NCBI GenBank assembly: GCA_029959085.1
Contig: JARWIR010000002.1
Location: 32,761,733-32,825,732, forward strand
Direction of reading: 5' to 3'
Source of the DNA: Nemophila menziesii
Lineage: Eukaryota; Streptophyta; Magnoliopsida; Boraginales; Hydrophyllaceae
Length of the DNA stretch: 64,000 nt
The notes below the pieces were generated by a model. It worked only from the letters and a program-made list of their open reading frames with translations. It was not told the origin of the DNA and ran no database searches. Of the stretch, positions 12,480 through 47,996 are shown piece after piece (the stretch's first letter is position 1; the number at the start of each line of letters is the position of its first letter). The translations under genes were made by a program, and so were the position numbers.

Positions 12480-13482
12480 GCTAGAGTTTAACTTGTCTAA
12501 CTCGTGTTTCATCTTTGAGATCCTATTTTCAAATTTATTGGTCACTTAAATAACCAACTTTAGGTTTAACTTGGATAACCTTTCACGAGCTTTAATGATA
12601 AATGACTATGAATGTTTTCTTAGGGGTTTGACCAACTTGTGTTTTGAATTTAATTCACGAGGTTTTAATCAAAGGTATTGGTGTTTGTGTGAGTTTAACC
12701 AACTTTATATATATAGGTGGATAACCTTTCCTAAGGTTTAATCGAGGATGTGATAACTTTGGGCGTCTAAGCAGTGTATTTCGACTCAATAACCCCTTCT
12801 GAGTTTTATATAACGATGGTTAGGGACTTAGGAAGTCTTACCAGTGTGTTTACAACTCGATAACCCCATATGAGGTTTATTTAAGGATGCTTGGTGACTT
12901 TGGTAGTCTAACTGGTTTATATTATCAACTTAGTAACCCCCTATGAGGTATAATCGAGGATGCTTGGTGACTTTGGGAGTCTAACTAATGTCTTTTTTGA
13001 CTTATTAACCCCTGATTAGGTTTTAAAAAGGATGCTTGGTGTCTTCAGAAGTCTAACTAGTTTGTGTGTTTGCCCTGATAACCCATTCTGAGGTTTAATA
13101 GAGGATTCTTGGTGCATTTTAGAGTTTAATCAGTGTGTATTTTACTTGATAACCGCTTTTGAGGTTTAATAGAGGATGCTCATTGACATTGGGAGCCCAG
13201 CCAAAGTATTTTTTACTTAATAACCCCTTCATTAGTTTAATCGAGGATGATTGGTGACTTTTGGAGTCTAAACAATGTATTTTTTTACTTGATGACCCCT
13301 TATGAGATTTAACCGAGGATGCTTTATAACATTATGATTTTAACCAGTGCGTCTTCATCTCGATAACCTTTTCTGCTGTTTAAACGAGGATGCGTGGTGA
13401 CTTGAGAAGTCTAAGCATCTCATATATTTTTACTCGATAACCTCCCTTGAGGTTCAATCGAGGATGGTGGTGACCTGATAAT
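12480..13482. repeat. Satellite array, ~72-bp unit (left part)
   Basis: Units share the pattern ACTCGATAACCCC, then GAGGTTTAATCGAGGATG, then TTGGTGACTT and GAGTCTAACCAGT. The ACTCGATAACC anchor recurs at 12,783, 12,854, 12,927, 12,999, 13,072, 13,143, 13,214, 13,286, 13,357 and 13,431, a spacing of 71-74 bp. Units before 12,783 are more degenerate. Copies differ by many substitutions, so the array is old. It stops at the edge of LTR C and resumes at 26,263. Confidence 0.93.
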
Positions 13483-15319: not shown

Positions 15320-15610
15320 TCTACAGTGATAGGAGAAGAAGAAAAACACAAGAATAATAAAATGGGAATTTGGAAGCTTAGATCGAGAATTATTAAAGTG
15401 GGTTTGGAATATGAACAATACGTTGATGATACATTATTGGAGAATCTTAATAAGCGTATCAGAAGGTTTCTATGGTTAAAAAAAGGAAAAAAGAAAGTGA
15501 ATGTTGCCGTCACCAATGGCTTGGTAGCTTCACACAATGAAATGGTGTATGCTCTCAAAAAACAAAGGGTTTGCGGAATTGCCCCAATGCAATTCCTTCC
15601 TCATCAATGA
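15320..15610 (+). CDS. LINE1 ORF1 C-terminal remnant
   Basis: An open stretch of about 95 codons ends with TGA at 15,608-15,610. It is rich in Lys and Arg in the middle (LNKRIRRFLWLKKGKKKV), as in the basic tails of plant LINE ORF1 proteins. Upstream in the same frame are stops at 15,173, 15,275 and 15,317, so the frame has lost its start, by 5' truncation and decay. Its stop overlaps the ORF2 start as ATGA. No domain is recognisable, so function is inferred from position only. Confidence 0.45.
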   Translation, partial: STVIGEEEKHKNNKMGIWKLRSRIIKVGLEYEQYVDDTLLENLNKRIRRFLWLKKGKKKVNVAVTNGLVASHNEMVYALKKQRVCGIAPMQFLPHQ

Positions 15611-18600
15611 CACACCTAAGCTGGAATTGTCAAGGGATTGGCAACCCCTTGACTTTCCAGACCCTAAAGGATTTATGTGCTCTACATAATCCTGAGGTAA
15701 TCTTCTTATCCGAGACTAAAAATTCTTCTACGTTTTTACATAATATTGCTTCTATTATTAAGATGAAACTTATTATAACTGTCGACCATGTGGGATTAAG
15801 TGGTGGTCTTGCTTTATTTGCTAAAGATAATATTAAAATTGAAGTTTTAGATGCTAATAACAATTATATTGATACGCTGATTAATAAGGATAAGTTAATA
15901 AAATACACTTATGTTTATGGAGCTCCTGAAGAAATTAATAAAAGTGAAGTTTTAGGTACTATTGCGAATTGTTATGATAAAAATTATCCTTGGTTAGTTA
16001 TGGGAGATTTTAATGTCATAAGAAACATATCTGAAAAAATTGGGGGGAACAAAATTAATAAAGGTAGTATGAAGTGTTTTGAAAAAATTATTAATAAACT
16101 TGCTTTGGAAGAAATTCCGAGATCAGGGTGTGAATTCACCTGGACTAATAGGAGGTCTAATGATGAACTTATTAAAGCTATACTTGATAGAGCTTTAGCT
16201 ACTAAAGATTGGACTGTGTTATATCCTAATGCTTGGATTTCTATTATCCCAGCCATAGGATCAGATCACTGTCCTTTAATATTCTTTCATGAGGTGAACA
16301 AAATTAATAAGAAAAAAAGATTTTTCTTCCAATCTTATTGGGCCTCTGAGAAAGATTGTTATAACATTATTGAAAAAGTTTGGAATGATAATAAAGCTTT
16401 TAGAGGTATACCTACTAAAGTTTTAAACTTCAAGTTGAACATTACTAAAAGGAAATTAATTCGCTGGAATAGATTGAAGTTTAAAAATAATAGAATTGTT
16501 ATTGATAAACTTATGGAAAAACTAAAGGATTTATCTAATAAGAACACTAATAAAGGGGATTGGACTGAATACAATGTGATAATAAAAAATATCGAGGAAG
16601 CTTGGAATAGAGAAGAAAAATATTGGAAAGATAAGTCTCGAAATCTTTGGTTAAAAGAAGGGGAAAAGAATACTTCTTATTACCATGCCTGTACTAGAAG
16701 CAGAAGGAAAATAAACACTATTAATAAGATTAAAAACTCTAATAATACTTGGGTTGAAAAAGATAATGAGATTATTGACATTTTTAAAGATTATTATAAT
16801 ACTATCTTCAAATCAGTAGGAGACAGAAACTTTGAAGATGTCTTGAATATTGTTCATCCGGTGGTTAATAATACTATGAATAATGAGTTAATAAAGAATA
16901 TAACCTATGATGAAGTTAAAGCAGCTACTTGGGAGCTGGGTTTGAATAAGTCTCCTGGTCCTGATGGTTACACTGGTTTATTCTATACTACTTATTGGGA
17001 TGTAATAAAATTAGATGTTATGCGCATTATTAATGATTTTTGGTGTAATAAAGGATCTCTAGAGATTATTAATCAAACTTTCATAGCTCTCATACCTAAA
17101 ATAGCTAATCCTTCTGAGGTTAGTCAGTACAGGCCTATTAGCTGTACAAATTTTATTTATAAAATTATCTCAAGGGTTTTAGTCAACAGATTAAAACCCC
17201 TTATGCCTCTTATTGTTGATAAAAATCAATCTGGCTTCATTCCTAATAGGAATATTCAAGAAAACATTTTGGTCTCGCATGAAATTATAACACACATTAA
17301 AAGAAGGAAAAATACTAAAAAGTATTTAATGGCTATCAAAGCTGATGTTAAAAAAGCTTACGAGTTTATAGAATGGGATTTTCTTGAAAAATTATTAATA
17401 AAATTGGGCTTTCACAATACTTGGGTGGATAGAATTATAAACTGTGTCTCAACAGTGACTTATTCTATTTTAATTAATGGTAAAGATTTCTCTTTATCTA
17501 AACCTACTCGAGGATTGAGACAAGGGGACCCTTTGTCCCCTTTTCTCTTCTGTATTGTTACTCAAGTTTTAAACTTACTTGTGAAGGATAAAATTGAAAA
17601 GAACGAGCTTGAAAGCTTTAAAATTGGTAATAACTGTCCTATAATCTCTCATCTGCTTTTTGCAGATGATAGTATTTTCTTTTTAAAAGCTAATGCGAGT
17701 GATGTTTTAGCCTTTAATACTATAATGGAAAATTTTAGTAGAGCCTCAGGCCTTTGCTTAAATTTAAACAAATGTGGAGTACTTTTTAGTAGTAACACTC
17801 CCACTTTTATTAAACATGTAATATCTCATCAGCTCAAAATGCCCCAAGTTGATACTTTGGGTACTTACTTGGGTATTCCCACTGATTGGAACAGGAACAA
17901 AAGTAAAGATTTTGAATGGATTATTATTCGCATTCTAAAAAAAATTGAAAACTGGCAAACCATTTTCTTATCTGATGCAGGTAAAGATATATTAATAAAG
18001 GCAGTGCTCCAAAGCCTCCCCAATTACCTTATGTCATGTTTCTTACTGCCCAAAAACATTTGTACCAAAATTGATGGTATCATCAGTAATTTTTGGTGGG
18101 GAAAAAATAATAAAAAAGGTATTCATTTCATTAATTGGGATACCCTTTGTCAATCTAAATATTCAGGAGGTCTAGGGTTCAGAAACACAAGTATTATGAA
18201 CCAAGCTCTCCTAGGTAAACAAGCTTGGTATATATTCCATAATCCAGATTCTCTAATTGCTAAAATTTACAAAGGTAAATATTATGCGCATACTACCTTT
18301 ATTAAAGCCAAGCTGGGTTCTTATCCTTCTCCTGGTTGGAGAGGTATTATTGAAGGTAGAAAAGTTTTTGAAAAAAACCTTTTTTGTAAATTAGGCAATG
18401 GTATGAATATTAATGTGCAGGAAAATATTTGGATTACTAATTCGGATAAAGTAATTAAACCCAAAGATAATACTATATCCTTTGTCAGAGATTTTTATAA
18501 TAATGATAACACATCCTGGAATGAGGAGTATGTTAAAGAACAATTTGATACTAATGTTGCCAATACTATTTTAGATATGAAAATCCCCCCATTTGATTGT

Positions 18601-19815
18601 CCAGACTTTACAATCTGGAATAAATCAAAAAATGGTGATTATTCTGTTAAAATAGCCTATGCTATTATCAAAGAACAGCTGGACTATTCTTCTAAAACTA
18701 GCTTGAATATTAAACCTTCCTCGTCTTACAATCATGATAAAAAAACGTGGAAATTAATATGGGGTATGAATTGTTCCAATAAAGTTAAAAACTTTATGTA
18801 TAAATGTGTAAAGGATAAACTTTCTACTGAAAAAAATCTATACATAAGGAAATGTACCAAAAATAAAGTTTGTAAGCTTTGCAACACTGAAGAAGAAAGT
18901 ATAGAGCATTTACTTTTTGCTTGTCCTTGGGCTAAGGCTGTATGGTTCAGTTCACAACTGACTCTTAAAACTAAAAATAATAGCACAGAAAAAATTGGAG
19001 ATTGGCTTATTTACATAAATGATTCTCTTAATAATAACTCTTCAGTGGGAAATTATGAGATTGAGTTTGTTTGCTATGTTTGCTGGCAGATTTGGAAAGG
19101 GCGAAACCTTTTTCTTTTTGAAAATGAAATCCCTGATCCTTTATTTACCCTACATCTAGCAAAAAAACATTGGAATGAATATAGAGAGGCTAATTTAAAT
19201 CCTAATGATGCAATTCATTCTAAGCTGAAGGAAACAGATAAAAAATCACTAAAGGGCATTCGAAATAATGCAATTAGTGACTCTCATAATGTAAACCAGA
19301 ATTTGTTAAATGATAATAATAGTAATTGGAAAGCTCCTCCCTTTAATAAGGTAAAGATTAACACTGATGCTTCTTTCTCTACTAATAATAGTACTATTGC
19401 ATATGTGATCAGGGACTCTTTTGGAAATTTGGTGGATTATGATGCTAAGGCTATAGCAGCTTCTCACGCTGGTGAAGCTGAAGCTTTGGGAGTGCTATGG
19501 GGATGCGAGAAAGCTAAGGAATTTGCTCCAGGCTCGGTGATCATTGAAAATGATTGTGCTACTGTTTTAAAGCCTTTGTCTTCTGCATCCTCAAACACTT
19601 TATTTGATTGTTGTAATATTTTTAAATCCATTTATGGTACTGCTGAGCTTTGTGCTCCTTCTTTTTCTCTTGTTCTTCGCAAGAGCAATAGGGTGGCTGA
19701 TTGGGTCACTAAACATAAGCTTTTAGGCAATATGTTTGGTGATTGGAGGGTGTGTCCTCCTCCCCAATTAGCCCTTTTGATTTCTTTAGACACCATTGCT
19801 GCTGGCATTGGTTGA
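15607..19815 (+). CDS. LINE ORF2: AP-endonuclease, reverse transcriptase, RNase H
   Basis: The 1,402-residue protein has no internal stop. I chose the ATG at 15,607 because LSWNCQG, the first conserved endonuclease motif, follows directly; an in-frame ATG at 15,571 would add 12 residues. Endonuclease: WNCQG (residue 6), LSETKN (about 35), GDFNVI (about 133), GSDHCP (about 218). RT: YRPISC (about 508), motif A KADVKKAYEFIEW, RQGDPLSPFLF (about 638), FADDS (about 685). A zinc-binding region CKLCNTEEESIEHLLFAC lies near 1,088. RNase H: NTDAS (about 1,252), GEAEAL (1,290), ENDCA (1,315), VADWV (1,363). Nicking, target-primed copying and RNA removal are all represented. Length matches plant L1 ORF2. 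Conserved motif residues look intact, so activity is possible. Confidence 0.95.
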   Translation: MTHLSWNCQGIGNPLTFQTLKDLCALHNPEVIFLSETKNSSTFLHNIASIIKMKLIITVDHVGLSGGLALFAKDNIKIEVLDANNNYIDTLINKDKLIKYTYVYGAPEEINKSEVLGTIANCYDKNYPWLVMGDFNVIRNISEKIGGNKINKGSMKCFEKIINKLALEEIPRSGCEFTWTNRRSNDELIKAILDRALATKDWTVLYPNAWISIIPAIGSDHCPLIFFHEVNKINKKKRFFFQSYWASEKDCYNIIEKVWNDNKAFRGIPTKVLNFKLNITKRKLIRWNRLKFKNNRIVIDKLMEKLKDLSNKNTNKGDWTEYNVIIKNIEEAWNREEKYWKDKSRNLWLKEGEKNTSYYHACTRSRRKINTINKIKNSNNTWVEKDNEIIDIFKDYYNTIFKSVGDRNFEDVLNIVHPVVNNTMNNELIKNITYDEVKAATWELGLNKSPGPDGYTGLFYTTYWDVIKLDVMRIINDFWCNKGSLEIINQTFIALIPKIANPSEVSQYRPISCTNFIYKIISRVLVNRLKPLMPLIVDKNQSGFIPNRNIQENILVSHEIITHIKRRKNTKKYLMAIKADVKKAYEFIEWDFLEKLLIKLGFHNTWVDRIINCVSTVTYSILINGKDFSLSKPTRGLRQGDPLSPFLFCIVTQVLNLLVKDKIEKNELESFKIGNNCPIISHLLFADDSIFFLKANASDVLAFNTIMENFSRASGLCLNLNKCGVLFSSNTPTFIKHVISHQLKMPQVDTLGTYLGIPTDWNRNKSKDFEWIIIRILKKIENWQTIFLSDAGKDILIKAVLQSLPNYLMSCFLLPKNICTKIDGIISNFWWGKNNKKGIHFINWDTLCQSKYSGGLGFRNTSIMNQALLGKQAWYIFHNPDSLIAKIYKGKYYAHTTFIKAKLGSYPSPGWRGIIEGRKVFEKNLFCKLGNGMNINVQENIWITNSDKVIKPKDNTISFVRDFYNNDNTSWNEEYVKEQFDTNVANTILDMKIPPFDCPDFTIWNKSKNGDYSVKIAYAIIKEQLDYSSKTSLNIKPSSSYNHDKKTWKLIWGMNCSNKVKNFMYKCVKDKLSTEKNLYIRKCTKNKVCKLCNTEEESIEHLLFACPWAKAVWFSSQLTLKTKNNSTEKIGDWLIYINDSLNNNSSVGNYEIEFVCYVCWQIWKGRNLFLFENEIPDPLFTLHLAKKHWNEYREANLNPNDAIHSKLKETDKKSLKGIRNNAISDSHNVNQNLLNDNNSNWKAPPFNKVKINTDASFSTNNSTIAYVIRDSFGNLVDYDAKAIAASHAGEAEALGVLWGCEKAKEFAPGSVIIENDCATVLKPLSSASSNTLFDCCNIFKSIYGTAELCAPSFSLVLRKSNRVADWVTKHKLLGNMFGDWRVCPPPQLALLISLDTIAAGIG

Positions 19816-19883: not shown

Positions 19884-20383
19884 CAACAAAGGTGAAACGA
19901 ATCTTATTGCAAAAAGGCACATATGACCTAGCCAATTAGACCGCTGGGCCCAAATGAGGATTCAATTTTAATTAAAACTAAAGTGGAGGGGTCATTTGCT
20001 AATAACGAGCTGTATTTTATTAAAAACCCACAATCTAGACTTAACATCCCTTTTCAACACAACTCTAAAATTCCTACCTCTAATTTCTTTATTGCAAGCT
20101 CCATTACAGATAAATCGAGTCCTCTTCTTCAGTTTAATTCTCTCGTGAAGGAGAAACTTCACACAAAGCAAGTCCGGTTGGATGTTGGGTTAGGTGACTC
20201 CAATGTATCTTCTGAATCTTTAGTAACTCCCATCTCCAAATATGAATACACTATGATGATTGATGGGAAGGTGAGAAGGTTGAGGAAACCGTAGATGAAG
20301 AAGGAGATTACAATAACATGGAGGTGGAAATGGGTAACTGGGAAGAGGATGGTTTGATGAAAGATGAAGAGGTTCGCTTTACT
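19884..20383 (+). pseudogene. LINE2 ORF1 C-terminal part
   Basis: After the LINE1 A tract the older LINE resumes. One open stretch, 19,983-20,294, encodes about 100 residues ending YEYTMMIDGKVRRLRKP, comparable in place and basic character to the ORF1 tail of LINE1. The segment 19,884-19,980 is not clearly readable. The frame then runs straight into endonuclease sequence near 20,384, so the ORF1/ORF2 boundary and the first endonuclease motif are missing. Confidence 0.6.
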
Positions 20384-23300
20384 TAATTACACTAAGCATA
20401 ATCCTAACGAGGTACTATTCTTATCTAAAACTAAACAATTATATTCATTTATTTTGAACCTAACTGTTAAATTAGATATAAATAGTATTGCCTATTTGAC
20501 CCAATAGGCAAATCTGGGAGGTTGCCAATTCTTGCCAAAAGTTGTTGAAAATTCAAGCAAATTCATTCTTCTAAAAACATTATTCATTGTAAAATTGATA
20601 TTCAAGGAACGGGGGTGGGGGTGTTTGTTTCTTTTGTGTATGACCCTCCTGATTCCCTGGAGAAGCCAAATTTTCGAAACGAACTAAAACGTTTTTGCCC
20701 CAACAATGTACCTTGGTGTATAATATGGGATTTTAACCTAATTATATTTTCTTCTAAGAAAATTGGAGTTGACAAAACTATAAAAAATAACATGAAGATG
20801 TTTAATGATTTTATTGATCAGCTAGACTTATTTGAACTACCTCAAAAAGGGGTTAGGTATACTTGGAGAACTATAAGAATGGGTGGTGCTCTGGTAAATG
20901 AAATTTTAGATAGATATTTAGTTAACAGTGATTGGTTATCAATATCCTCTGATAGTTGGGTAGCAGCCCACCCTGCTATAGGCTCTGATCACACACCCAT
21001 TATGCTTCACTTGAATAACATAGCTGTAAAATCCAATAACAGATTTATATTGGACAAGAATTGGGTTACATTAGATTCCTCTAATGAGGAGTTGGTATAG
21101 TTATAAGAAATTTGTGTGAATAGTGATTGAAAGATTCCATAAAAATACTAAGGGTATGACTTTTGGTCTTACCAGATGGGCTAGGCTGAGGACCCTGAAT
21201 TAGAGGATTCTACTTAGAAACACCACTAAAGAATTAGATTTACTCTCCAATGACCCTTTTTCAAAATAGAATGCTTAAAAGTACAACTCTTTGAACCAAA
21301 ACTCTTGAGGATTATTGGTAAAGGAGAAAATATATTAGGCCTTAAGGTCCAGAAACATGTGGCTTAAGTTGGGTGATAAAATTTTAGATACTTGCAAACA
21401 ATCACCAAAGCTAAAAGATCTAGAAATAAGATCACTAGACTTAAAAGAAGAGATAATACTTGAGTGGAGAACAATGATGACATTGCAAAAGAGATTGTGG
21501 ATTAATTCTCTAATGTGTTCCAATCTATGGGACCTAGAGATTACACTTCCAATCTAAATTTTATAACACCCAGTGTAACCTCTAAAATGAGCAAAAATCT
21601 TTTTAAACCTATCAGTATGGAGGAACTTAAATATGCGGTTTGGAGCCTTGGTCCTGATAATACTTTAGGCCCAAATGGGTTATCAGGGTTTTTCTATATT
21701 AAACATTGGGAATTGATCAAATTCGATGTCCTAAGGCTTGTGTCTGATTTATTGAACAATAATAGTGATCTCTCAGCTATAAATGGGAGTATAATTGCTC
21801 TCATTCCTAAATGTGTAAGCCCTAAGAACGTTGGATCCTACAGAACCATTAGTTGTGTGAAATTTATATATAAAGTAATTTTTAAAGTCATGGTTCTAAG
21901 AATGCAATCTTATATGGACACGTGGGTAGATGAATCCCAAAATGCTTTCATTCCACGTAGGTCCATATTTGATAACATTCTTATATCACATGAGATTAGC
22001 CATTATATCAAAAACCAAAGATAATTAAAAAATTACTCCATTGCTATAAAAGCTGATATCTGAAAGGCTTATGAGTTTGTGGAGTGGGATTATTTCTTTG
22101 ATTTATTATATGAACTTGATTTTCATGCTTTATGGATTAATTGGATAAGAAATTGTGTAACATTTTTTCTTATGAGGTGTAGGTGAATGGTATGATATAT
22201 AAGATATCTAATCAATCAAGGCGATTGAGACAGGGTGACACCCTGTCTCCATTCCTTTTTTGTATAGTTACACATGCATTATTAGCACTTTTGAAAGAGG
22301 TTGAGGGAAACAACAGTTCGAAAGGCATAAATATAGATAAAGGATCTCCTAGTATTACACATTGCTTATTTGTTGATGATAGCTTTTTCTGCATGGAAGC
22401 TAATGTTGAAAATGTAAGTAACTTTCAATATTTACTTCACAAATACATCTATGCTTCAGGACAACAGGTAAACCAAAATAAAAGTGGCATTTTATTTAGT
22501 AAAAATTCCTTTTTAACTTGAGAAACGATATTAAAAGTTTATTGAGAATGAATGGGTGTCCCAACTTTATGGGGAATATCAATAATCAAAGGATTAGAAT
22601 GGCCCGTGACACTATTTTAGTCAGAATTGAAGCAAGGAACATCAAGCTTCTATCACCTAGTGGAAAAGAAACTTTGATTAAAGCCATCATTAATGCCATT
22701 CTGAATCATGTGATATATGTTTTCTTGATACCAAAAAAAGTGACTAATCGTATGTCATCCCTTGTGTCTGACTTCTTTTGGGGTAATAAGGGACAAAATA
22801 GAATCCATTGGTTAAGTGGTCAACTCTTACTAAACATAAATTAGATGGGGTTTTAGGATTCAAGGATTTTCATGCAAATAATTTGGACTATTTAGTTTCT
22901 AATGCTTAAAAATATTTTCTTAAACTTGACTCAGTTGTTTTCAAACTCCTTAAAGGTAAATATTTTCCAAATTCTGAATTTCTAGAAGCAAAGGTGGGAA
23001 TTAACACATCTTGGGGTTGGAGAAGTTTTATATCTAGTAGAGATGTTTTAAAAAAAATATATGTTTTGGCAGGTTGGAAAAGGTGAAAAGATCGATATAT
23101 GGGACTCTAGATGGATCCCAGGTCATAATAGTATTTCTAAACCACTTGGTACACATGTGGAATGGGTTAAATATTTATTAAATGACTCTAGAATAGTCTG
23201 GAACATTGAAATACTGGAAAATTAATTCAATTTAACTTTGATAGCAACCATCTTAAGCATCCATGTTTCTCCCAATATTATTGGTACCCCAATTTGTGTC

Positions 23301-26262: not shown

Positions 26263-26655
26263 TCTACTCACTTTATTTTTTTAACTCTATAATCTTTTCT
26301 AAGGTTTAATCGAGGATGTGTGGTGACTTGAGAAGTCTAACCATAACATATTTTTTACTCAATAACGTATACTGAGATTTATCGAGGATGTGTGGTGATT
26401 TGAGAAGACTAACCATTTCATATTTTTGACTCGATAACCTTTCTTGAGATATAGTCGAGGATTGAGAAGTCTAAACATTTTTTTTTAACTCACTAACCTT
26501 TCCAGGGGTTTAATAGAGGATACATGGTTATTTGTTTTTTTTACTCGATAATCTTACTTGAGGTTTAATCGATGAAGTGCGGTTATTTGAGAAGTCTAAT
26601 CATTTCATATGTTTGACTCAACAATCTTACATGAGGTTTGATCGAGAATTTTTTC
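26263..26655. repeat. Satellite array, ~72-bp unit (right part)
   Basis: The units match those at 12,480-13,482: GGTTTAATCGAGGATGTG, TGGTGACTTGAGAAGTCTAA, then ACTCGATAACC. Anchors lie near 26,284, 26,356, 26,428, 26,487, 26,541 and 26,614, with two units shortened. It is the continuation of the left array beyond LTR C. Confidence 0.9.
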
Positions 26656-27671: not shown

Positions 27672-27676
27672 GTATA

Positions 27677-29168
27677 TGATGTCTCCCCATTTGTGATGAT
27701 TTAATCCTAGTTGGAGACATCATTTTAGGTGTATTTATTAGAGTATAGGTCGATTGTATCATGATTTAGTACACTTTCCTATTTTGTGTCTTGAATTAAT
27801 TATTTATTATTTTTAGAGCATATCGGGTTTAATTATTTATTTAGTGTGAAGCTTTAAAGATATATGGTAATTAATTAGAGTCCAAGTTAATTCTAAGAGT
27901 TAAAGGAAAGAAGATAATAATGGAAATTGAAGATAAGGAAACAAAAGCTAAAAATATGAAAAAGAAAAAACTACCATAAATCTGAATTTCACCACCCATG
28001 ACCACAAATCAGCTTGTATCTCAGAATCGGTGTGGAAGAACGATCAAGAGAAAAGTTAAAGATCATTCCGAGACGATGAATTTCGACTACTCATACGCGT
28101 CAAACGGATAAGTATTGAAACTGTTAGGACCAAAACAAAAACGGGGCTGATTTCATATTTTAGGGTTACAAATTTGAGTTGGGCTAGGAGTCCATTACTT
28201 ATCTTCTCCTTCAAGAAAACGAATTAGGTCTTCCTATACCCTATAAATACAGTCTCTTATCATTATAAAATCGTCCTTGGCCAAACCTTAGGTCAGGAAG
28301 AAGCTATAACACAAGAAGAGAAGTTTGGAAGGAGCTGTGCATCAATCATGTCTTCTTCAACCTTTAATTCTGTAATTCTTTTCTTTTCTTAGTATGAATT
28401 AAATAAATTTCGCTTGAATTTTAGTATATGTGTATGAACCCTAGTTTTGATTGACATCTATCTAATTCGGGAATTATATGTTTTAAATTGAATTTATGTT
28501 TTGATTTCTCTGTTTATGTGTTGGATTTATATTCTTTGTTCATTACGGTTGCAAATGTATTACCATCATAATAGTTAGATAACCATTGACAATAGTATAT
28601 TTAACTATACAATTAGGACATAACATCTAGAATAAGGTTTAGATCTGACAAATCAGCTTAACTAAATAGTCAATGGTTTAGTATATTGCTATTTAATCAA
28701 TTGCAGGAAAAGTTTACTTAGGTTTTTATTGACATAGGTAAACCCTATTTAAAACTACCTAGCGCAATTGAAACCAAACTATTGTAATACTACATGATTC
28801 ACCCTTACATGTTTAGAACGGCAAAACTAGTGGGGATTACTTGCTAATTACTCAGGCTAAACTATCATACTATTGTTCTTTGCTTATTTACTTTCATGTC
28901 TTTAATTTATTGGTTTAATTTTATTATTCAAAAACCATATAAAAATCTATCTTTCTCTTCTTTACTCTTGCGTATTATTATTCTAGCTCTCATATCTGCA
29001 CTTGATAATTTGCATAAGTTCTTCCTAACTTTCGTAGTCTCTAAGGAACAAATCTTCTTATCATTAAAACTTGCATACGTCCTGTAATACTTGCAGAGCC
29101 GTGCTCAGCCAAGGGTGTTTATTTGCACTTATTTATATTATTATTTTATCACACCTTAAGCGACACCA
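27677..29168 (+). repeat. Element D left LTR, inverted orientation (1,492 bp)
   Basis: It starts TGATGTCTCCCC at 27,677 and ends AGCGACACCA at 29,168. A TATA box CTATAAATAC is at 28,241-28,250. The first ten bases recur inverted as GGAGACATCA at 27,713-27,722. At 29,168 it joins ACTCAAAGTTG of the minus-strand internal region; other copies have AGACCCCCAACTCAAAG there, following a minus-oriented LTR. Confidence 0.93.
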
Positions 29169-30540
29169 ACTCAAAGTTGTATCGTCCCGATACAATAAAA
29201 GTAAAGAACAGTAGGGTAGTCAACCTGAAGAAGAAGTAGGAGGAGAATAAGAACAGAACATAATGAATGATCCTAGAGCATAAATATCTAAAAAGTCTCA
29301 TGTAGTAATTCTCAAGAAATAATGCACACGTATGCTTAATATACACATAATCAACAATCCATAAATTCAAATCAAAATTAATTTCGCAATGCCAAGAGGA
29401 GAGGTCTCAACTTAGTTCGTGCTAATGGCTATAGGTTGTTCATAGGTCCTAATATAGCATCCAATGGTCCACTCACCTACTACCTAATAGCTCAATTGTT
29501 TCTCCACCAAGCAGTTAAAAAAAATCCTAAGGTCTTTACGTGGCTTAGGGACGGTGTGGTATATTTGGATAAATGAAAAGCTCCTCACATTCCATCAACA
29601 AATTGCCCTAGAGCTTGAGTTTTCACTCGAAGATGTTCTCACTCAACCCAATTATTTATGCTTTTGATGTGCATCCCCAATAATCCCAAATAAAACCTTT
29701 TTCATGATGATATACAAATTCCACTTTGCCGGTCTGAATATATATTCTTTTCGTATCAATTTTTTCCTTTGTATAGCTATGACTCTCTTTTTGATGTTCG
29801 AGATATCACACTATTTTTTTTTCATATATATATTTTTTTTCTTTTCAAATCTAGCTCGTAGCTTCTTTTTCATTCACTATTACCCCGACAAAGGGTTACA
29901 ATAATAACTTTTTCATCATCAATAAAATCACAATTACAATTTCCAAACCCAAAGTTCCATAATGATGAAACCCACCACCCAAACTCAAGCTCTGAAAACG
30001 ACTTGTCTCAGGTTTTGCGATTCGAGTGCGGCTCATATAGATAAGTCCTACAACTAAAGGTATGGATTATAATGTGGTTAAATAAAAGGCTTTAGAAAGG
30101 CTCAAAGGGGCTAAGATGGAAAATAATAACAATAATCAAATAAAAAGGGTGAGAAGGTATAAAAAGGCTTCAAGTGACTTCAATATGAAAGAACTACCTT
30201 ATTCATTTTTCTAACTACCAGATTTTGTTACTTTTGCACTAATAGTTCATAGATAAGCGAGTTTTCAACTAATTTCAAACCTCACGTTCTACACACTAAA
30301 TAACTCTCCCTATGTTTCAACGTAACTTTTTAGCATTTCTCATTAACTTTTCTATCTTTTATTTCCTGTTTTCATACATGCATACTAAACATATTTATGA
30401 CATCTTTCAAAAACATACTACTCACTATCATTGACCTAATTAGATCATGCTCAAATAGGTACATTCAACATATTCTATGCCTAATTCAACCTAAAAAAAT
30501 TTAAATTTTATGCAAAAACAAAAGGGAAGATGAGGACAAC
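29169..30540 (-). other. Element D 3' noncoding region
   Basis: There is no coding frame. Sequence blocks recur in the same place in E, F, G, H and J: GTATCGTCCCGATACAATAAA next to the PPT, the GGGACGGT(A/G)TG segment (29,549), and the GGTGG-CCACC-type block with CCCAAACTCAAGC (29,972-29,992). Conservation across copies suggests a shared ancestral 3' leader, not a gene. Confidence 0.75.
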
Positions 30541-30544
30541 GAAT

Positions 30545-30584
30545 CCCCACCCCAACTCAAAAGTGAGTCGTGTCCCCATGACTC
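30545..30584 (-). promoter_or_regulatory. Conserved hairpin plus second PPT-like tract (D)
   Basis: The hairpin GAGTCGTGTCCCCATGACTC (30,565-30,584; one stem mismatch) adjoins CCCCACCCCAACTCAAAA, the complement of a TTTTGAGTTGGGGTGGGG purine tract. The same pair occurs in F, G and H about 1.4 kb before the true PPT. Confidence 0.6.
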
Positions 30585-30599
30585 GAAAAAGACTCAAGA

Positions 30600-31390
30600 A
30601 AGAAATAAAATTTAAAATTGGCACACATATTGCACATATATAAATGGTAAGGAAGAAAGAAAACATACTCTTCGAGGCTATTACCTCGCCTTATCGACAT
30701 CCAAGATAAGATTTGCTGGATTTTCTTTAATTTCTCACGGAGTGTTATGATATACTCCTTTTCTTCTTTTGAAAGTTGCATAATTACTCTCAAAACTTTA
30801 ATGATCCAAGCATTGTCAATATTTTTACTCATCTTAAAGTAACGTGTTTCTTCTTCACCCAAAATTATATTCGTTTTTTCGAACAAGAAACGTGATCATA
30901 GTAGGATATTGCATTAAATAACAACATGAGAGAGACCGAAAATCGCATCACCTCCTCATAGATCAACTGTGCCACATCTTCTTCTTCTCCTCTCAAAATA
31001 CAATTCAACAAAAAGAACGTCTTAACATTAACGTAGACCAACCCAATCTTTCCAAATCTTCATGAATCTTCTTGTATTCTCCTTTACCAACTTCTTCTTC
31101 AAATACTTTCTTATAAGCAAAAGGTAGTTCCTTTAATTGTTTCTTTGGAGAAGCTATCATGGCCATTGAAGCTTTCTCTTTTTCTTCGGGTGTAGGGTCT
31201 TTGATTTGTAGAGGTTGCGTTGTTTTCTTCACTAAAGATAGAACATTTTTGCCCACTGAATCAAACACAGCTAGCTGACCTCTCTTCTCTTGACCTGTTT
31301 CACCCTTTGTGTTGGAACTAGAACTTTTCTCACTTGATTTCTTCTCAATAAAATCCAATACCTTAATTTTCTTCATCTCCCTTACAATAG
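30600..31390 (-). pseudogene. Element D 3' ORF, internally deleted
   Basis: The N-terminal 123 codons are open (31,376-31,005). They include a Ser/Lys-rich start (FIEKKSSEKSSSSN), QPLQIKDPTPEEKEKAS and LKELPFAYKKVFEEEVG, matching H. After GWSTLMLRRSFC the reading jumps in other frames to DVAQLIYEEVMRFSVS and IDNAWIIKVLR (30,886-30,700), so about 110 residues present in H are missing. The family sits where Athila elements carry their 3' (env-position) ORF, but I see no signal peptide or membrane segment. Confidence 0.7.
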
Positions 31391-31861
31391 ATATTGTTTA
31401 TGTTCTCTTAATCATCTCAATTGACCCCCGACTCAAAGCTTTAACCACTCTTGAAATTTGAAACTCTTGATTATTGGTTGTACAAGCTTTATTTTGGTTA
31501 GGAAAGGTGTTTTAATGATGATTCTCTATATGGGTAAGATGGATTCTTCATGGATTGGTATCGATTTAAGGAATTGTAGGATGAATTTCTGAAATTTAAG
31601 CTTTTGATTCTTGAATTTAATGTGTTTTGGTATGATATGGATGGTCGAATCTTTCTTGTAATGATGTGGAGAAAGGTTTGGATGTGTTTTTATGGTGATT
31701 GGGTAATTTTTTGATGTTTAGGGAAGGTTTGATGAAGCTTTAATGGAGTTTGGAGAGGTTTGGAGAAAAAGGAGAAGTTTAAGGATTGAAAAATTCGGAC
31801 TAGAACTCACCTCCTCTTCTTTATAACATTAAAAACACAATTTTTTCTCTTTTTAGCGGTG

Positions 31862-32115
31862 TCGGGCGGTATACCGGCCGTAGAGCCTAGTATACCGGAG
31901 CTACTGTTCCTCCAGATTCATGCTTCGTCAAAATACCCGAGGCGTGCACACGTGGGCACGGGTTTTTGTTCTGGCCGGTATATCGGAGGTATGGCCCGGT
32001 ACACCGGAGCTGGCTTCCTTCGAAATTTCGACTTTCTGCCTTGAACACGTGACGACACCCGTGGGCTCGGGTTTTTCTGACCTGCGGTATACCGCCGGTA
32101 AGGCCCGGTACACGG
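31862..32115. promoter_or_regulatory. GC-rich CGGTAYACCG palindrome cluster (D)
   Basis: The cluster includes CGGTATACCG (31,867), CCGGTATATCGG (31,974), CGGTACACCGG (31,998) and GCGGTATACCGC (32,084-32,095), plus CACGTGGGCACGGG and CACCCGTGGGCTCGGG stems. It is much more GC-rich than the surrounding element and lies between the integrase C-terminal remnant and the 3' ORF. Confidence 0.75.
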
Positions 32116-32309
32116 CGGCAGGTCAGAATACTCCCAAAAAATTCTGTTTTTCCTCCCAAATTAATACCTGAACATCAAAAACACTAATACCTTTCTCAAA
32201 TATGAAATATCAACTAAAAATAACTAAACTAAAAATGAATTAAAAACCTAAAAACACAAAATTTGCGAAGTCTCCTGTATAGCACTTTTGTTTAACGTCT
32301 TTTAAAGTT

Positions 32310-34128
32310 AGACGCGTTACCTCGATTAAGAATGACGAAATTTGAACCCCTTTCCTCTAATTCCCACAAACTTCTCAGCTCTATTCTTCATAATCATGGA
32401 TGGTTCCATCCAAGAGTTCGTGGGTATAGGTTCGTCTGGTGGTAACTTGATAGTAGTACACTCCTCTGGTGATCCACTCATATCCTCAGTTTCAAATATT
32501 CGTTTGTTAGAAAGAACGTCCTTCATGAATTTCAGATAATTTGGCATTATTTTGAGAGCTTCTACAAATGGTATGTTAATCTTTATGTTGTTCACCATGT
32601 CAAGAACTTCTGGAAATTTTTTTCGTTGTTCTTGGTTTTGACACGTGATGTGAATGGTAGAGGAGGACGTGTGTTGGTTACCACTGGACTCTCTTTGTTT
32701 TCTGGTGTCTTCTCTGGGACACTCGTTTGTTTAATTACCTCTTCAACCTTGTCTTTAATTGTTTCTTCAAACACTTTTTCAGGAATAGAGGTTGGTTCTG
32801 GTTCTACTCTAGGTGGAGGTAATTGTTTTTCACTTCTTAATTCAACTACATGACAAGCATGATCTTCTGGAGCAATAGTTCCACTTAGGAGTTGCCCTTT
32901 TGGCCTAATTTGCATTGTAATCGCCATTTGTGATATATTATGCTCAAGATTCTTGATTACCTTTGACTGGGTTTGAATTCTTTGCTGGCTCATCTTCATA
33001 TTTTCTTCAACTAGTGTCATCATTGAAGCCATACTTGAATTCAAACTTGAAGGTTGCTTTTGTGTAGCTTGTTGCATTGAATATTGAGGTGGTTCTCAAT
33101 AAGCTTTATTATAAACTGGCGCTTCTTGATAGATTTCTTTGTAAATCAAAGCTTCTTGATAGATAGGTTGTGGTGGATGCTAAGATAGAGGTCGAGGTTG
33201 ATAATAAGTCTCTTGATTTCTGACCCAATTTTTATTTTGTGGGGGCTGATAATTAGCGTATCTTCCTTGAGGATGATAATAACCATTAGAATAATGGTTT
33301 CTTTAATGAGATACGAAGAAAATTGGGGCTATATTATTCAAGCAATTCTCCCACGAATGGTTTCTTGCTCCACAACCTGGACATAAAGGTAAAGTAGGTA
33401 CTAGATTCAACTAAGCTATTGTTCGTGCTTGTTCTCGTAATTCCTCAAGTTGTTAGTTTAACTCCTTGAGCCTTAGAGACTCTCTTCTTTTTTTTCTGAT
33501 TCAACCGGCCAACTTCTCTCGGTCTCAAGAACTTTCTCCATAATATTTTCGGCTTCTTCAGGATCTAATAACACAAAACCTTTATCTCATAACATATCTG
33601 CTCTTCTTCTGGACTCGTCATTAAGTCCTCAATAGAAAATGGTTAATGAATATTCTGGAGATGATATATGGCATGGACATCTCGCCTTCATCTCGTTAAA
33701 ACATAACCATGCTTCACCCAAACTTTCTCTGTCTTTCTGCATAAATTGTTCGAGCTCCAACATATCTTTTAATCTTCTACTAACCGGATAAAATTGGTCT
33801 AGGAATTTAGATTGAAGCTTGTCCCAATCTGGAATAACGTGAGGGCGTTGGGTATCGTACCAATCGCTTGCACTTCCAGTCAAAAAGAACTGAAAATAAT
33901 GTAATACATCCGCTCCTTTGTAACGCCTCTGCCAATATAAGTGTCACATATCTGCACATACCAGGCCGGATTTTTTTGTACAGCACCGCCAAATTGTCCA
34001 TGATTTGCAAACTAGGCTAACATCCCTGGATTTGGTATAAATTTAGTGGCTTGGATTTTTGGAGTGCGGATTCTCCTTGGTTGCACTCTATATGTGATTG
34101 GAAGATCAAGTTTCCTTGGGCTCGCCAT
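32310..34128 (-). pseudogene. Element D gag - protease N-end - integrase C-end, deleted pol
   Basis: The start is the ATG at 34,128 (MASPRK). The capsid part reads PGMLA, DTYIGRGVTKERM, then TGSASDWYDTQRPHV, LDQFYPVSRRLKDMLELEQFM and CPCHISSPEYSLTIFY. The C-terminal gag and linker (33,077-32,592) include AMMTLVEENMKMSQQR-like sequence and a Pro-rich stretch. The run-up to protease (INIPFVEALKIMPNYLKFMK) then passes within 20 residues of ECTTIKLPP into SWMEPSMIMKNRAEKFVGIR. That last part aligns with the SWMGPFIVTKVV integrase tail of H. Protease catalytic region, RT, RNase H and integrase core are gone. Confidence 0.75.
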
Positions 34129-34225
34129 CTGTAAAATCTGTAAAACAAAAACTAAAAATAAAAGCGTAAAATAGAACTAACTAAAATATAAGCACTAGAT
34201 AATTGTACAAGGACTAACGATGTAG

Positions 34226-34243
34226 TCCCCGGCAGTGGCGCCA
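34226..34243 (-). other. Primer binding site of element D (tRNA-Asp-like)
   Basis: Minus strand TGGCGCCACTGCCGGGGA, seven bases after the LTR end; 16 of 18 positions match the tRNA-Asp-type site used by Athila elements. It shows the right LTR is the true 5' LTR. Confidence 0.88.
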
Positions 34244-34249
34244 AAAACT

Positions 34250-35758
34250 TGGTGTCGCCTAAGGTGCGATAAAATAATAATATAAATAAGTGCAAATAAA
34301 CACCCTAGGCTGAGCACGGTTTCTGCAAGTATTACAGGATGTATGCAAGTTTTAATGATAAGAGGATTCGTTCCTCAGAGACTACGAAAGTTAGGAAGAA
34401 CTTATGCAAAATATCAAGTGCAGATATGAAAGCTAGAATAATAATACGTAAGAGTAAAGAAGAGAAAGATAGATTTTTATTTGGTTTTTGAATAATAAAA
34501 CTAAACTAATAAATTAAAGACAGGAAAGTAAATAAGCAAAGAACAATAGTATGATAGTTTAGCCTGAGTAATTAGCAAGTAATCTCCACTAGTTTTACCG
34601 TTCTAAACATGTAAGGGTGAATCATGTAGTATTTCAATAGTTTGGTTTCAATTGCGCTAGCTAGTTTTAAATAGGATTTACCTGTGTCAATAAGAACCTA
34701 AGCAAACTTTTCCTGTAATTGATTAAATAGCAATATACTAAACCATTGACTATCTAGTTAGGCTGATTTGTCAGATCTAAACTTTATTCTAGACGTTATG
34801 TGCTAATTCTATAGTTAAATATACCGTTGTCAATGGTTATCTAACTACTATGATGGTAATCCTATGCGTTTGCAACTGTAAAGAACACAGAATATAAATC
34901 CAACACATAAACAGAGAAATCAAAACATAAATTCAATTTAAAACATATAATTCCCGAATTAGATAGATGTCAATCAAAACTAGGGTTCATAAACATATGC
35001 TAAAACTCAAGCTAAATTTATTTAATTCATACTAAGAAAAGAATAGAAACGAATTACAGAATTAAAGGTTGAAGAAGACATGATTGATGCACAGCTCCTT
35101 CCAGACTTCTCTTCTTGTGTTATAGCTTCTTCCTAGCCTAAGGTTTGGCCAAGGATGATTTTCTAATGATAAGAGGCTCTATTTATATGGTATAGGAAGA
35201 CATAATTCGTTTTGTTGAAGGAGAAGGTAAGTAATGGACTCCTAGCCCAACTCAAATTCGTAACGCTAAAATATGGAATCAGCCCCGTTTTTGTTCTGGT
35301 CCTAATAGCTTCAATACTTATCCGTTTGACACGTATGAGTAGTCGAAATTCATTGTCTCGGAAAGACATTTAACTTTTCTCTTGACCGTACTTCCAAATT
35401 CCTCACCGATTCTGAGATACAAGTTGATTTGTGGTCGTGGGTGGTGAAATTCAGATTTATGGCAGTTTTTCCTTTTTCATATTTTTAGCTTTTGTTTCCT
35501 TATCTTCAATTTCCATGATTATCTTCTTTCCTTTAACTCTTAGGATTAACTTGGACTCTAATTAATTACCATATATCTTTAAAACTTCACACTAAATAAA
35601 TAATTAAACCCAATATGCTCTAAAAATTATAAATAATTAATTCAAGACACAAAATAGGAAAGTGTACTAAATCATGATAAAATCGACCTATAATCTAATA
35701 AATACACCTAAAATGATGTCTCCAACTAGGATTAAATCATCACAAATGGGAAACATCA
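34250..35758 (-). repeat. Element D 5' LTR (right, 1,509 bp)
   Basis: The minus strand runs from TGATGTTTCCC at 35,758 to GGCGACACCA at 34,250. A TATA-like CCATATAAATAG lies at 35,190-35,180. Its sequence matches the left LTR in reverse orientation along its whole length. GTATA follows at 35,759. Confidence 0.93.
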
Positions 35759-35763
35759 GTATA

Positions 35764-39904: not shown

Positions 39905-41369
39905 TGTGTCGGCTAGGGCGTGACAAAAAATAAGATACCAAATGATGCGACTAAACACCTTATCTGAGCACGATACTCACTGCAAGTATCGCAGATCGTA
40001 CACAAGTCTTAATGATAAGTAAAGATTCATTTCTAGGGATTTAGTTTGTTATACGAATGATTAACAGAAAAATGTAGTAATAAATAGCTAATGAATTCAA
40101 AGACAATAAAAGTAAATATGATTGGCTGAGGAGAAAATGATTAATTACACTAAAAAACAATAAATTAAAAGATATCTGAATAAGATGAGAAAGTATAGCT
40201 TAGGTTTTGCTAGTATGCAGTAATCCTTCTATTTCTTCTACTACTTAATAAGGGTGATTAATGCTCTTAGATAAGTAGCCAGGATTCTATATTACTCCTA
40301 ACCCCCTTCTTGGTGGACATAGGTCGCGGCCTAACAATTACCATGGGACTTGGGTAAGGGGACCCTGTGCGATGATTAGTGATTAAATCTCAAACCCTAA
40401 TGACTACCTAGTTAGGAAAGCCCTTCCGGATCACTACCGCATACTAGACGCTTATGTGATGTTTCAATAATTAGACACCCCTTCCGGGTAACCATCTAAC
40501 TACTATTAAGACAATCCTAACGTGATCTAGGTTAAGATAGACAACAAATTAAAGCGCATAAAACAAATATATGGTTAAGAAGTTAGAATCAATTTAAAAT
40601 AGTTTTCCCAAAAAAAATTAGATAGAAGAGAATATGATTCAAAGATTATACATATGCAAAACCCAAGTTATGGGAAAATTAGTTCATACTAGAAAGAAAT
40701 AAACTAAAATAAAGATACATATTGTATCTTGTGTCTCTTGAATGGCTTCTATGATGAATAATATTAAGGATTAATTGGGAGAGGCAAGGACATATTTAAA
40801 ATGATTAAAGGGTGTATAAATAGGTGTTTTGAAGACCCTAGTTCAAAATCTTGGATTAGAAGGCCTGTAATTTGACTCCTTTTATAAATCAAATTCGTTT
40901 CCTAAAATATAGGATATAGGATAAACACTGCTATCTTGTTCTGGTCGTAACTCCTTACTTATTGGTCCAATTTTTGCAGACTTTATATCAAAACGACCGC
41001 GTCAAAAATATCGACACCGATTTTAAGTTATCTTCACTTTAGTGGACGTGGCTGCAGAATTTCAAATTTACTTGGCAACTTTTTCTTTCCTATTTTAGCT
41101 CTACTTCTTTTTATCTCCAATTTCTATTCATATCTTCTTTCCTTATCTCTTTAGAATTGATTTGACATCTAATTAATTTCTATATATCTTAAAAACTTCA
41201 CATTAACACACAAATTAAACCAAATATGCTCTAAAGATAATAATTCATTAAATCAAGACAAGAAATATGAATTTATCAAAATACGAATAAAATCTATATT
41301 TAATTACTCGAATACACCTAAAATGATGTCTCCAACCTAGATTATTATATTACATATAGGGAGATATCA
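39905..41369 (-). repeat. Element F 3' LTR (1,465 bp)
   Basis: The minus strand runs from TGATATCTCCC at 41,369 to GCCGACACA at 39,905. GGAGACATCA follows about 40 bases inside the start. The TATA region reads CTATTTATAC (40,823-40,814). The PPT adjoins at 41,370, which fixes it as a 3' LTR. Confidence 0.88.
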
Positions 41370-43229: not shown

Positions 43230-44159
43230 TAAACTCAAAGCAACTACTTAGAAAATTTAATGTTAATAATATTCACAAACTAGATTACCTGTACACTTGT
43301 CATATTCACGATCAACACGACTCAACCATGGAGGCTATAGATTGTTCATCGAACTTCACTAGTACCCATAGATACACTTAACTACTCTCTAACGGCTCAA
43401 TCACTTTTAGATTACATTGAAAAGGATCAAAAGGTCTTTAAGGTTGTAATGTTTGCTTAGGGACCGTATGATAAGTATATTTGGATAACTTAGAGTGAGC
43501 TTTTGGCTCTCTCCTCACTAGCCATCAACGAATCGCCCAAGAGTTTGAGTTACTCTCATAAAACGTTCTCACTCAAGCCAATGAATTATGCACTAATTTA
43601 GCATCCCCAATAACCCAATACTAAAGCATAAAGATTATCACAAAAAAAATTCTCTTTGCCGGTCCAAATATATTCATTTCCATATCAATTTTTTTCTTCT
43701 GTGTAGTTATGCCTCTCTTTTTGATGTGAGATATCATGCTAATTCTTTTCTCGTATATATTTTTTCTTTTCAAATTTTTCATTTACTTTTACCCCGGCAA
43801 AAGGGTTACAACGTAATAAACCGTGAATCGTCATCAAAATATAGAACAAAGCATCATTAATAAGCTCAAAAATTCCCAACCCAATAATATTTCCCATAAT
43901 GGTGGACCAACCACCCCAAACACAAGCTCTAAAACAATTGTCTATGCATCGCGATTCGAGTATGGGTCATACAAAAATGTACTATAATCTAAAGGGATAT
44001 GGCTTATAACATGGCTAATAAAAAGGCTTTAAAAAGGCTAGAAGGGGCTGAGAAGGATATAAATATAATAAATGGACATTAAGATAAAAGGAAACAGCGG
44101 GCTTATCAAAGAACCGCCTTAATCACTTTCAAAATTATGCCATTTCGTCATTCTCTTAC

Positions 44160-45720
44160 TGATGTCTCCCCATTTGTGATGATTTAATTTTAGTTGGAGA
44201 CATCATTTTAGGATTATTTAGAAGTCATTTACGCTATTTTTACATATATTATTATATTTTCTTATTTCTTCTCTTGATTTGATGAATTATTATTTTTAGA
44301 GCATATTTGGTTTGATTGTTTATTAATTGTGAAACTTTAAAGATATATAGTAATTAATTAGATGCCAAATCAATTCCAAGAGATAAATGAAAAAAGATAA
44401 GGATGGAAATTGAAGATAAAGGAAGGAAAAGATAAGTATGGAAAGATAAAGTAGCCAAATAAATCTGAATTTCACCTACTTCGTCTATAAAAGTGATCCT
44501 AACTCAAGATTTGTTGGGAAATTGGAAGACTTGTCTGAATGAAAGTTGTAGAGATTTCCAAGACTATCGGTTTCGATACAAAGAACGCGTCTATCATAGC
44601 GGTATTGAACAAGTTACGACTAAAAAACCAGTAACAGTTTATTACCTTTTCTATATTTTAGGGTTATGAATTAGAGTTGGGAAGGATGTCCAATTATTTG
44701 TGTTCCACTCCAGTAAAACGTGTTAGGGCTTCCTAAACATCTGTAAATACACCCTTTAACTATTGTAAACATGTCATTTCTCAATTCTAAGTCATATATT
44801 AGTCTTTGCTTGAATATGAAACCCTTAATATCAAGTTTATCATCCAAGAAGCAAGCTGACCTGTAAAGGAAGACAAGAAGCAAGAAGTTGGAGAATGACA
44901 CACTCCTCTTCTACATCTCTCCTTCTATATATTTAGGGTAATTAGCTATAGAGTTGTGGCTTCACCATATTTCTAAGATTTTATTCTGTAAGTTTTACTA
45001 TTAATTATTGGGTTATTATTTTGTCTTAAATTCCATAATACTGTTTGTTATTTTAATTGATTTGAGCTTGGTGTATATTGGTATTGTGTGCTTTGACTTA
45101 TTGTTTCCAGCCCTAGATTTGTCCAATCTTAGGACTATCCTTAGTAATTGAGTTAACACCCGGAAGGGGGATTGAATTTTTGACAACACCACATAATCGT
45201 CTATTGTGCGGTAGTGATCTTGACGGGCTTGCCTAACTAGATAGCCATAAAGGTTTGATTTAACCACGGATCATTACTCAGGGTCCCCTTACCCAAGTCC
45301 CCTGGTAGTGGAGAGGTTGCTCCTAAGTCCACCCTGATGTGGGTTAGGAAGAATTTAGAATCCCGGTTAATATACAATGCTCACTTCACTCTTAAGATTC
45401 TAATAACAACTTAGTAGGATAGACTCATATTAGTAACCCTAATTTATTTGACTTACATATATATTTATATTCATTATTTATTTATTCGCGTTTGATAATT
45501 ATTCATCTTATCCTATTTTTATCTAAACATCTAAATTCGTCTACGCTTATTTAATACAAGTAGATCTAACGGATAAAATCCCTACGAATGAACTTGTCTT
45601 ATCAACGAAACTTGCAAACGATTTGTAATACTTGCATTGAGTTTCTCGTGGTAGTCAAGGGTGTGTACTTTATTATTATATTTATTTATCTGTTTATTTA
45701 TCACACATTTGCCCCCACCA
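44160..45720 (+). repeat. Element G 5' LTR (1,561 bp)
   Basis: It runs from TGATGTCTCCCC to CCCCCACCA. The TATA position reads CTGTAAATAC (44,751-44,760) against CTATAAATAC in the 3' LTR. GGAGACATCA, the inverse of the LTR start, lies at 44,196-44,205. It has about 130 bases (roughly 44,957-45,090) that the 3' LTR lacks. Confidence 0.93.
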
Positions 45721-46929: not shown

Positions 46930-47005
46930 TCAGTCCGGTACACCGGACGACCCTTCCGGTATACCGCAGTGGAGAAAACCCGTGACCACGGGTTATTGAC
47001 TCGGG
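46930..47005. promoter_or_regulatory. CGGTAYACCG palindrome cluster (H)
   Basis: TCCGGTACACCGGA (46,934-46,947, one mismatch) and CCGGTATACCGC (46,956-46,967), then a CCCGTGACCACGGG stem near 46,978. It is shorter than in other copies because H has lost the start of its 3' ORF here. Confidence 0.75.
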
Positions 47006-47054
47006 TTTCTTGCCGAGAAGAAAAAAATCTCTTCCCTTCAAAGGTCCTACACCC

Positions 47055-47996
47055 ATGGATAAAGAGAAAGCTTCGAAGGCCTTGAGAGCTTCTGCAGAAA
47101 AAAAATTAAAGGAACTACCTTTTGCTTATGAGAAAGTATTCAATGAAGAAGTTGGTGCAAGTGAGTATAAGAGATTCTTGGAACTTGGTGAAAAATTGGG
47201 TTGGTCTACGTTCATGGTAAGACGTTCTGAATTATGTCATGAGTTAGTTTTGGAATTCTATTTAGGCCTCTTTAGCCGAGATAGCAAAGGTTGTGTTCCG
47301 ATTAGAGGCGAGTTAGTTCCTTTCACAGTTGAGGATATTAGAAACCACTTCAAATTTAAGAAATTAATTGAATATTGCAAGCATAGTGAAGCGGTTGCTA
47401 AACGAAAAATCTTTGATGAGGAATTGCTTTTTGAGCATGTTTTAGACAAGGAGAAAGTGCAATCACATAAGGGAGAATTGAAGGCACCTTGGCCTTACAA
47501 ATACCTTCAACCGGATGCGAGAGTTTGGCACAATTTCCTTATTCCTAATGTCTTTGGAAACACACGAACTTTGGATGTGAATAAAAAGAACGCTCTACTT
47601 TTGGATTGTATTTGGAGAGGAGAAGAAGTAGATGTGGCACAGCTGATCTTTGAGGAGGTGATGCGATTTTCGGTCTCTCCTAAATCTATTTATAATGTTA
47701 AATTTCCTACTATGATCACGTGTCTTGTGCAAAAAGCGAATGTTATATTGGTTGAAATAGAGAAACTCGAGTTTAAGAAGAGTTATATTGATAATGCTTG
47801 GATCCTGAAAGTCTTGAGAGGAGCGGTTTCTACACAAGTCTCGAAAGAAGAAAAGGAGCAAAGTTGGCAAGAGAAGATGGAGGAGTGTTTAAACAATTTC
47901 GAAGCAGCTCAAACTTCCTTAGCCAATGATGTGGCACAAATCAACTCTAATCAAGTGCACATCATGAAACTCCTTGAGCAATTAATGAAAGATTGA
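47055..47996 (+). CDS. Element H 3' ORF, putative plant transposon protein
   Basis: The 313-residue open frame is the best-preserved copy of the family. I use the ATG at 47,055 (MDKEKASKALRAS). D and G show about 80-90 more N-terminal residues (Ser/Lys-rich), so H is probably N-truncated. The LKELPFAYEKVFNEEVG block is shared with D. Residues about 65-105 (LVLEFYLGLF, then RGELVPFTVEDIRNHF) resemble the 'putative plant transposon protein' family (Pfam PF20167, from memory). Residues about 262-312 form a likely coiled coil (SKEEKEQSWQEKMEECLNN onward). No signal peptide or membrane segment is seen. Function unknown. Confidence 0.7.
   Translation: MDKEKASKALRASAEKKLKELPFAYEKVFNEEVGASEYKRFLELGEKLGWSTFMVRRSELCHELVLEFYLGLFSRDSKGCVPIRGELVPFTVEDIRNHFKFKKLIEYCKHSEAVAKRKIFDEELLFEHVLDKEKVQSHKGELKAPWPYKYLQPDARVWHNFLIPNVFGNTRTLDVNKKNALLLDCIWRGEEVDVAQLIFEEVMRFSVSPKSIYNVKFPTMITCLVQKANVILVEIEKLEFKKSYIDNAWILKVLRGAVSTQVSKEEKEQSWQEKMEECLNNFEAAQTSLANDVAQINSNQVHIMKLLEQLMKD

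Follow-up and report, generated by a model that had tools for sequence, protein, structure and literature searches.

Inverted LTRs between matching target-site duplications in Nemophila menziesii: a retrotransposon probably inserted as a cDNA with two U3 ends

How can an LTR retrotransposon come to lie between perfect target-site duplications (TSDs) with its two LTRs in opposite orientation? This question is raised by element D, which lies in a window of 64,000 nucleotides of Nemophila menziesii DNA (Table 1). The LTRs of D have the TG...CA ends of integrase-class Ty3/gypsy elements, and a 5-bp duplication of the Ty3/gypsy type, GTATA, is present on both sides; the LTRs are not direct repeats, the left one being plus and the right one minus, and both outer ends start exactly at TGATG, that is, with U3. 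A preliminary description had read perfect GTATA duplications, a plus left LTR facing a minus right LTR, primer site and interior, and U3 at both outer ends, and our analysis reproduced each of these orientations and coordinates to the base. The primer-binding site (PBS), TGGCGCCACTGCCGGGGA, occurs a single time in D in a search that tolerated up to 4 substitutions, on the minus strand and beside the right LTR. Since the interior is minus as well, the right LTR is the 5' LTR of D, and the left LTR occupies the place of the 3' LTR, but reversed. We propose that D is probably one integrase-mediated insertion of a malformed cDNA that carried a U3 end on each side, having been fused by joining or by template switching.

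Table 1. Coordinates of element D, its parts and neighbouring LTRs in the window
Feature	Positions	Strand	Details
Element D	27,677-35,758		GTATA - LTR(+) - interior(-) - LTR(-) - GTATA
Left TSD	27,672-27,676	.	GTATA
Left LTR, complete	27,677-29,168	+	1,492 bp; U3 end TGATG outward, U5 end ACACCA
Aberrant junction, left-LTR U5 end fused to PPT flank	29,166-29,169	.	CCA shared
PPT flank	29,169-29,183	-	GATACAACTTTGAGT in element sense, without the GGGTCT found before normal 3' LTRs
Interior of D	29,169-34,249	-	Order and orientation as in pieces of B, C, E and F
Remnant ORF	30,755-31,397	-	Related to the Transposase_32 (PF20167) ORF of 46,986-47,993; tblastn
gag piece	33,629-33,943	-	Retrotrans_gag PF03732, E 9.5e-12; Pfam
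PBS	34,226-34,243	-	TGGCGCCACTGCCGGGGA, 6 nt from right LTR
Right LTR, complete (5' LTR of D)	34,250-35,758	-	1,509 bp; U3 end outward
Right TSD	35,759-35,763	.	GTATA
Element C, LTRs	44,160-45,720 and 54,631-56,072		Normal orientation; TSD CTTAC both sides
Solo LTR	7,750-9,410	+	TSD ATAAG both sides
Element H	39,906-41,369	-	

The interior of D can be followed along related pieces in the window: matches from element B cover the LTR side and those from C, E and F cover the rest up to the PPT flank, jointly spanning most of the interior in one order and orientation, and alignment to these pieces revealed no inversion within it. The ORF at 46,986-47,993 carries PF20167 (Transposase_32, E 1.7e-23), and D holds a decayed relative of it by tblastn. 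This ORF is an open frame of 336 aa within a gag-bearing LTR element; a search for its homologues gave none at E ≤ 0.001 among 1,906 candidates. In the 6 pieces scanned of the 8 minus-strand pieces of D of at least 75 aa, Pfam found neither a pol domain nor a tyrosine recombinase gene, D being decayed; four Pfam families matched by D pieces below the curated cut-offs were taken as chance. The three pol-region pieces of B gave no tblastn match in D, a weak control since the RT/RNase H piece of B matched nothing else in the window. A gag-region piece found no relatives among the viral contigs, Rfam gave 0 matches at gathering scores and ARAGORN 0 hits. From its sequence, D reads as a degenerate Ty3/gypsy-type element, too decayed for activity, whose enzymes probably came from a relative. 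It is probably Athila-like by its PBS, gag and Transposase_32 ORF, and the label "plant-type" used below rests on the Pfam description of PF20167 and on this likeness to Athila.

At 29,168/29,169 the left LTR, complete to the last base of U5, meets the PPT flank. In all four neighbours in the window that have a normal 3' LTR (E, C, F and H), the PPT flank adjoins the U3 of the 3' LTR and the boundary reads TTTGAGTTGG(G/A)GGTCT-TGAT, whereas D keeps TTTGAGTTGG and then runs directly into TGTCGC, the U5 end in complement. The junction word, GACACCA-ACTCAAAG, has one exact copy in the window and one further place with 2 mismatches. Pattern searches gave 0 hits for the canonical PPT-LTR boundary and, for the junction, 2 viral contigs, which we read as chance because neither matches the window at E ≤ 1e-3. 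It had been claimed that the LTR end ACACCA is joined to the PPT flank at 29,168 through a shared CCA, which is exact, and that the AGACCCC part of the flank was lost; bases are indeed missing there, but they are 6 nt (GGGTCT in element sense) and not 7, when CCA/TGG is counted as shared. The bases common to both junction partners are TGG (CCA on the plus strand). The 5' LTR of D runs ACACCA-AGTTTT-TGGCGCC, with a 6-nt spacer before the PBS, and the common bases rise to four (TTGG/CCAA) if the donor LTR end retained this spacer.

Are the two LTRs sisters, as the preliminary description held? The left LTR aligns from its first base to its last with the right one in reverse complement, at 93.5% identity with gaps and 94.6% over 1,491 ungapped columns (54 transitions and 26 transversions; K80 0.056), and the pair separates from other LTRs with 100% support. 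By the yardstick of C, a normally oriented element whose LTR pair is 90.6% identical over 1,427 columns, they are sister-like. The D LTRs reach 56.4-67.1% over the alignment with the seven other full-length LTRs of the window (14 comparisons), and among partial matches the U3 part of E comes closest, at 81% over 618 columns, a value that calls for caution in reading 94.6% as the mark of one cDNA. LTRs from separate insertions of a single young family might be just as alike, and the identity is no proof of a single cDNA, since the comparison is confined to the LTRs of the window. The substitutions are evenly spread (5-12 in each bin of about 150 bp; five indel events in all) and so give no sign of a mosaic; on the same ground, gene conversion within the D LTRs was discarded. 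Together these values fit one age for the pair. At a rate of 1.3e-8 per site and year, the divergence would correspond to about 2.2 My.

What points to one insertion of a molecule with two U3 ends is the TSD taken together with both exact U3 termini and the sister-like identity of the LTRs. Sabot and Schulman drew on a TSD and similar outer LTRs in the same way to recognise single integrations of composites derived from reverse transcription (PMC1950507). The three lines agree with the earlier proposal that a cDNA with U3 ends on both sides was inserted, and the matching GTATA suggests that D was mis-built before insertion, not scrambled afterwards. If the molecule had two U3 ends before integration, the TSD, the exact ends and the positions of the breakpoints follow directly. 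A target-word preference behind the equal GTATA was considered and rejected, the other two TSD pairs read in the window, CTTAC and ATAAG, showing no fixed word. When the flanks of D are joined at one GTATA, no relative in the window spans the join and the stop-free frames measure 11-61 codons.

How might such a cDNA have formed? We infer both that the fusion preceded integration and the route that it took. The U5 end of an LTR copy would have been joined to the PPT flank of a cDNA, replacing the normal 3' LTR, by end joining or by a template switch through a microhomology of 3-4 bases (CCA/CCAA against TGG/TTGG). The fused product would then carry a U3 terminus at both ends, and integrase, which presumably came from an autonomous relative because D itself yielded no pol, would have inserted both U3 ends and produced the 5-bp GTATA duplication. 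The preliminary description had proposed that plus-strand strong-stop DNA primed with its CCA 3' end on TGG in the PPT, and as stated this is unsupported, the PBS lying 6 nt beyond the LTR end. Plus-strand strong-stop DNA is copied from U3 to U5 and then into the primer; with a PBS 6 nt out, the ordinary molecule should carry AGTTTT and a PBS copy, not a CCA end. Only integrase processing or early termination leaves a CCA 3' end. The spacer base that extends CCA to CCAA favours microhomology joining or strand switching, and retrotransposons, according to one paper, reportedly hijack alt-EJ, which makes end joining of cDNA plausible. Our preference is for joining by microhomology or for a template switch at CCAA/TTGG; the main rival is self-integration of the processed U5 end at the PPT. 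The overlap of 3-4 bases is weak evidence for homology-guided joining, and microhomology joining, template switch and U5 self-integration at the PPT all fit the single locus D.

In the self-integration route, a one-ended autointegration, the processed CA-3'OH of U5 attacks its own cDNA at the PPT, on the minus strand opposite the interruption of the plus strand; repair then yields a flipped LTR, and the resulting two U3 ends integrate. The two-U3 core is common to this route and to the explanation that we prefer, and the route, counted apart, seems to us unlikely. The LTR is joined precisely at its CA terminus, as autointegration would have it, and Garfinkel in 2006 is said to have described Ty1 autointegration through the DNA flap. 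Given a hit somewhere in the PPT, homology-guided joining predicts the shared CCA, whereas we estimate it as about a one-in-thirteen coincidence for self-integration, which also requires an extra repair step before the second integration. HIV-1 autointegration yields deletion or inversion circles; the inversion products of retroviral and Ty1 autointegration resemble D in having an LTR end joined inside the element's own cDNA, but they are described as nonproductive circles, whereas D is a chromosomal insertion with a TSD (PMC2644782).

Alternatively, two elements of the same family, the left one plus and the right one minus, might have been fused by an illegitimate deletion running from the U5 end of one to the PPT of the other, the TSD match being coincidental. 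In the table of PMC1950507, complexes that arose when neighbours recombined after insertion outnumber those due to a template switch by 20 to 2, and the window holds densely nested related elements, the truncated E nearby among them. Nevertheless, the reading demands matching 5-mers, which two random 5-mers of the window show with a probability of 0.0017, in a window where CTTAC and ATAAG argue against any fixed target word. It also demands breakpoints exactly at the LTR end and the PPT, for which we obtain about 1.5e-6 (the LTR end within 5 bases and a 13-base PPT stretch), a crude figure that takes deletion ends as uniform and ignores hot spots; and the D LTRs are at least as alike as those of the true sister pair C. 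We therefore give it only a slim chance. A local inversion that flipped the 3' LTR of a normal minus element once it had integrated would preserve the TSD and the sister LTRs without special cDNA chemistry. This needs a break exactly between TSD and LTR, however, and flipping LTR and PPT together would leave PPT bases outside U3, where there are none, so that more trims would be needed; homologous recombination between LTRs, we reason, is unable to invert an LTR relative to its neighbours. Such a flip is in our view very improbable, since the exact U3 ends, the TSD match and the breakpoint positions speak against it as they do against a deletion between two elements. An assembly or chimeric-read artefact at 29,168 is scarcely credible even in repetitive surroundings, for a repeat-driven misjoin is expected inside shared sequence with the LTR context kept, whereas only 3-4 bases are shared here and the outer GTATA match would stay unexplained.

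Compared with ordinary plant Ty3/gypsy elements, D has the same TG...CA LTRs of about 1.5 kb, PBS, PPT flank, gag and 5-bp TSD, but its LTRs are inverted, both outer ends are U3 and a U5-PPT fusion replaces the PPT-LTR junction. DIRS elements are not known to make a target-site duplication. DIRS-1 and other tyrosine-recombinase elements resemble D in having inverted LTRs around one interior, but they employ a tyrosine recombinase and circular intermediates, whereas D has a 5-bp TSD, a PBS, a PPT flank and a neighbour, C, with direct LTRs (PMC5633606). A DIRS-like nature of D was ruled out by the GTATA TSD, the PBS and the PPT flank. The Angela, Squiq and Opie complexes attributed to template switching resemble D in being read as one abnormal reverse transcript from the TSD and the similarity of the outer LTRs; they contain three LTRs and two interiors in one direction, whereas D has two inverted LTRs and one interior (PMC1950507). 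Nearby opposite LTRs also appear in a cucumber survey, where two opposite-facing LTR pairs were removed in curation (PMC4600303), and at grape TRIM loci, where opposite-direction LTRs are mentioned as a PCR complication (PMC7166211), in both cases in passages that contain no TSD or junction analysis. In the open-licence library searched, we found no description of an inverted-LTR element of the integrase type that carries a TSD.

If D does represent a single integration, then integrase acted on two U3 ends in a plant-type cell and made a normal TSD, and mistakes at the PPT are able to enter the genome. Such insertions would presumably be missed by LTR finders that look for direct repeats, but long-read plant genomes would allow an immediate measure of their frequency; dating from the LTR pair would still apply to them. 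More tentatively, D may be a fossil left by a by-product that arises repeatedly in plant reverse transcription, in which U5-PPT joining yields two-U3 cDNAs that integrase takes as a concerted pair, so that inverted LTR pairs with TSDs would form a real, overlooked class of insertions unseen by direct-repeat finders; we consider this generalisation possible but doubtful.

Other features of the window deserve mention. Between the LTRs of C lies E, a third full LTR (49,614-51,151) with its own PPT, for which no 5' LTR was found; to its right the sequence continues into a protease-like frame (Asp_protease_2, below the curated cut-off). E was probably inserted in C and then lost its 5' part by recombination. 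By alignment, 43,325-44,159 and 56,073-58,100 are the interior of an older element on the minus strand, which C split when it inserted. An internal piece of an old plus LTR, with its ends missing, lies at 60,023-60,711 near a minus interior; it was considered as an inverted partner of H and set aside as an internal piece without ends. Among non-LTR features, a stop-free frame of 1,424 codons (15,541-19,812) begins, by eye, like a LINE endonuclease/RT protein and is followed by further broken LINE-like frames (19,932-22,841), and two related tandem arrays, whose unit is close to 72 bp, occupy 12,734-13,324 and 26,309-26,521.
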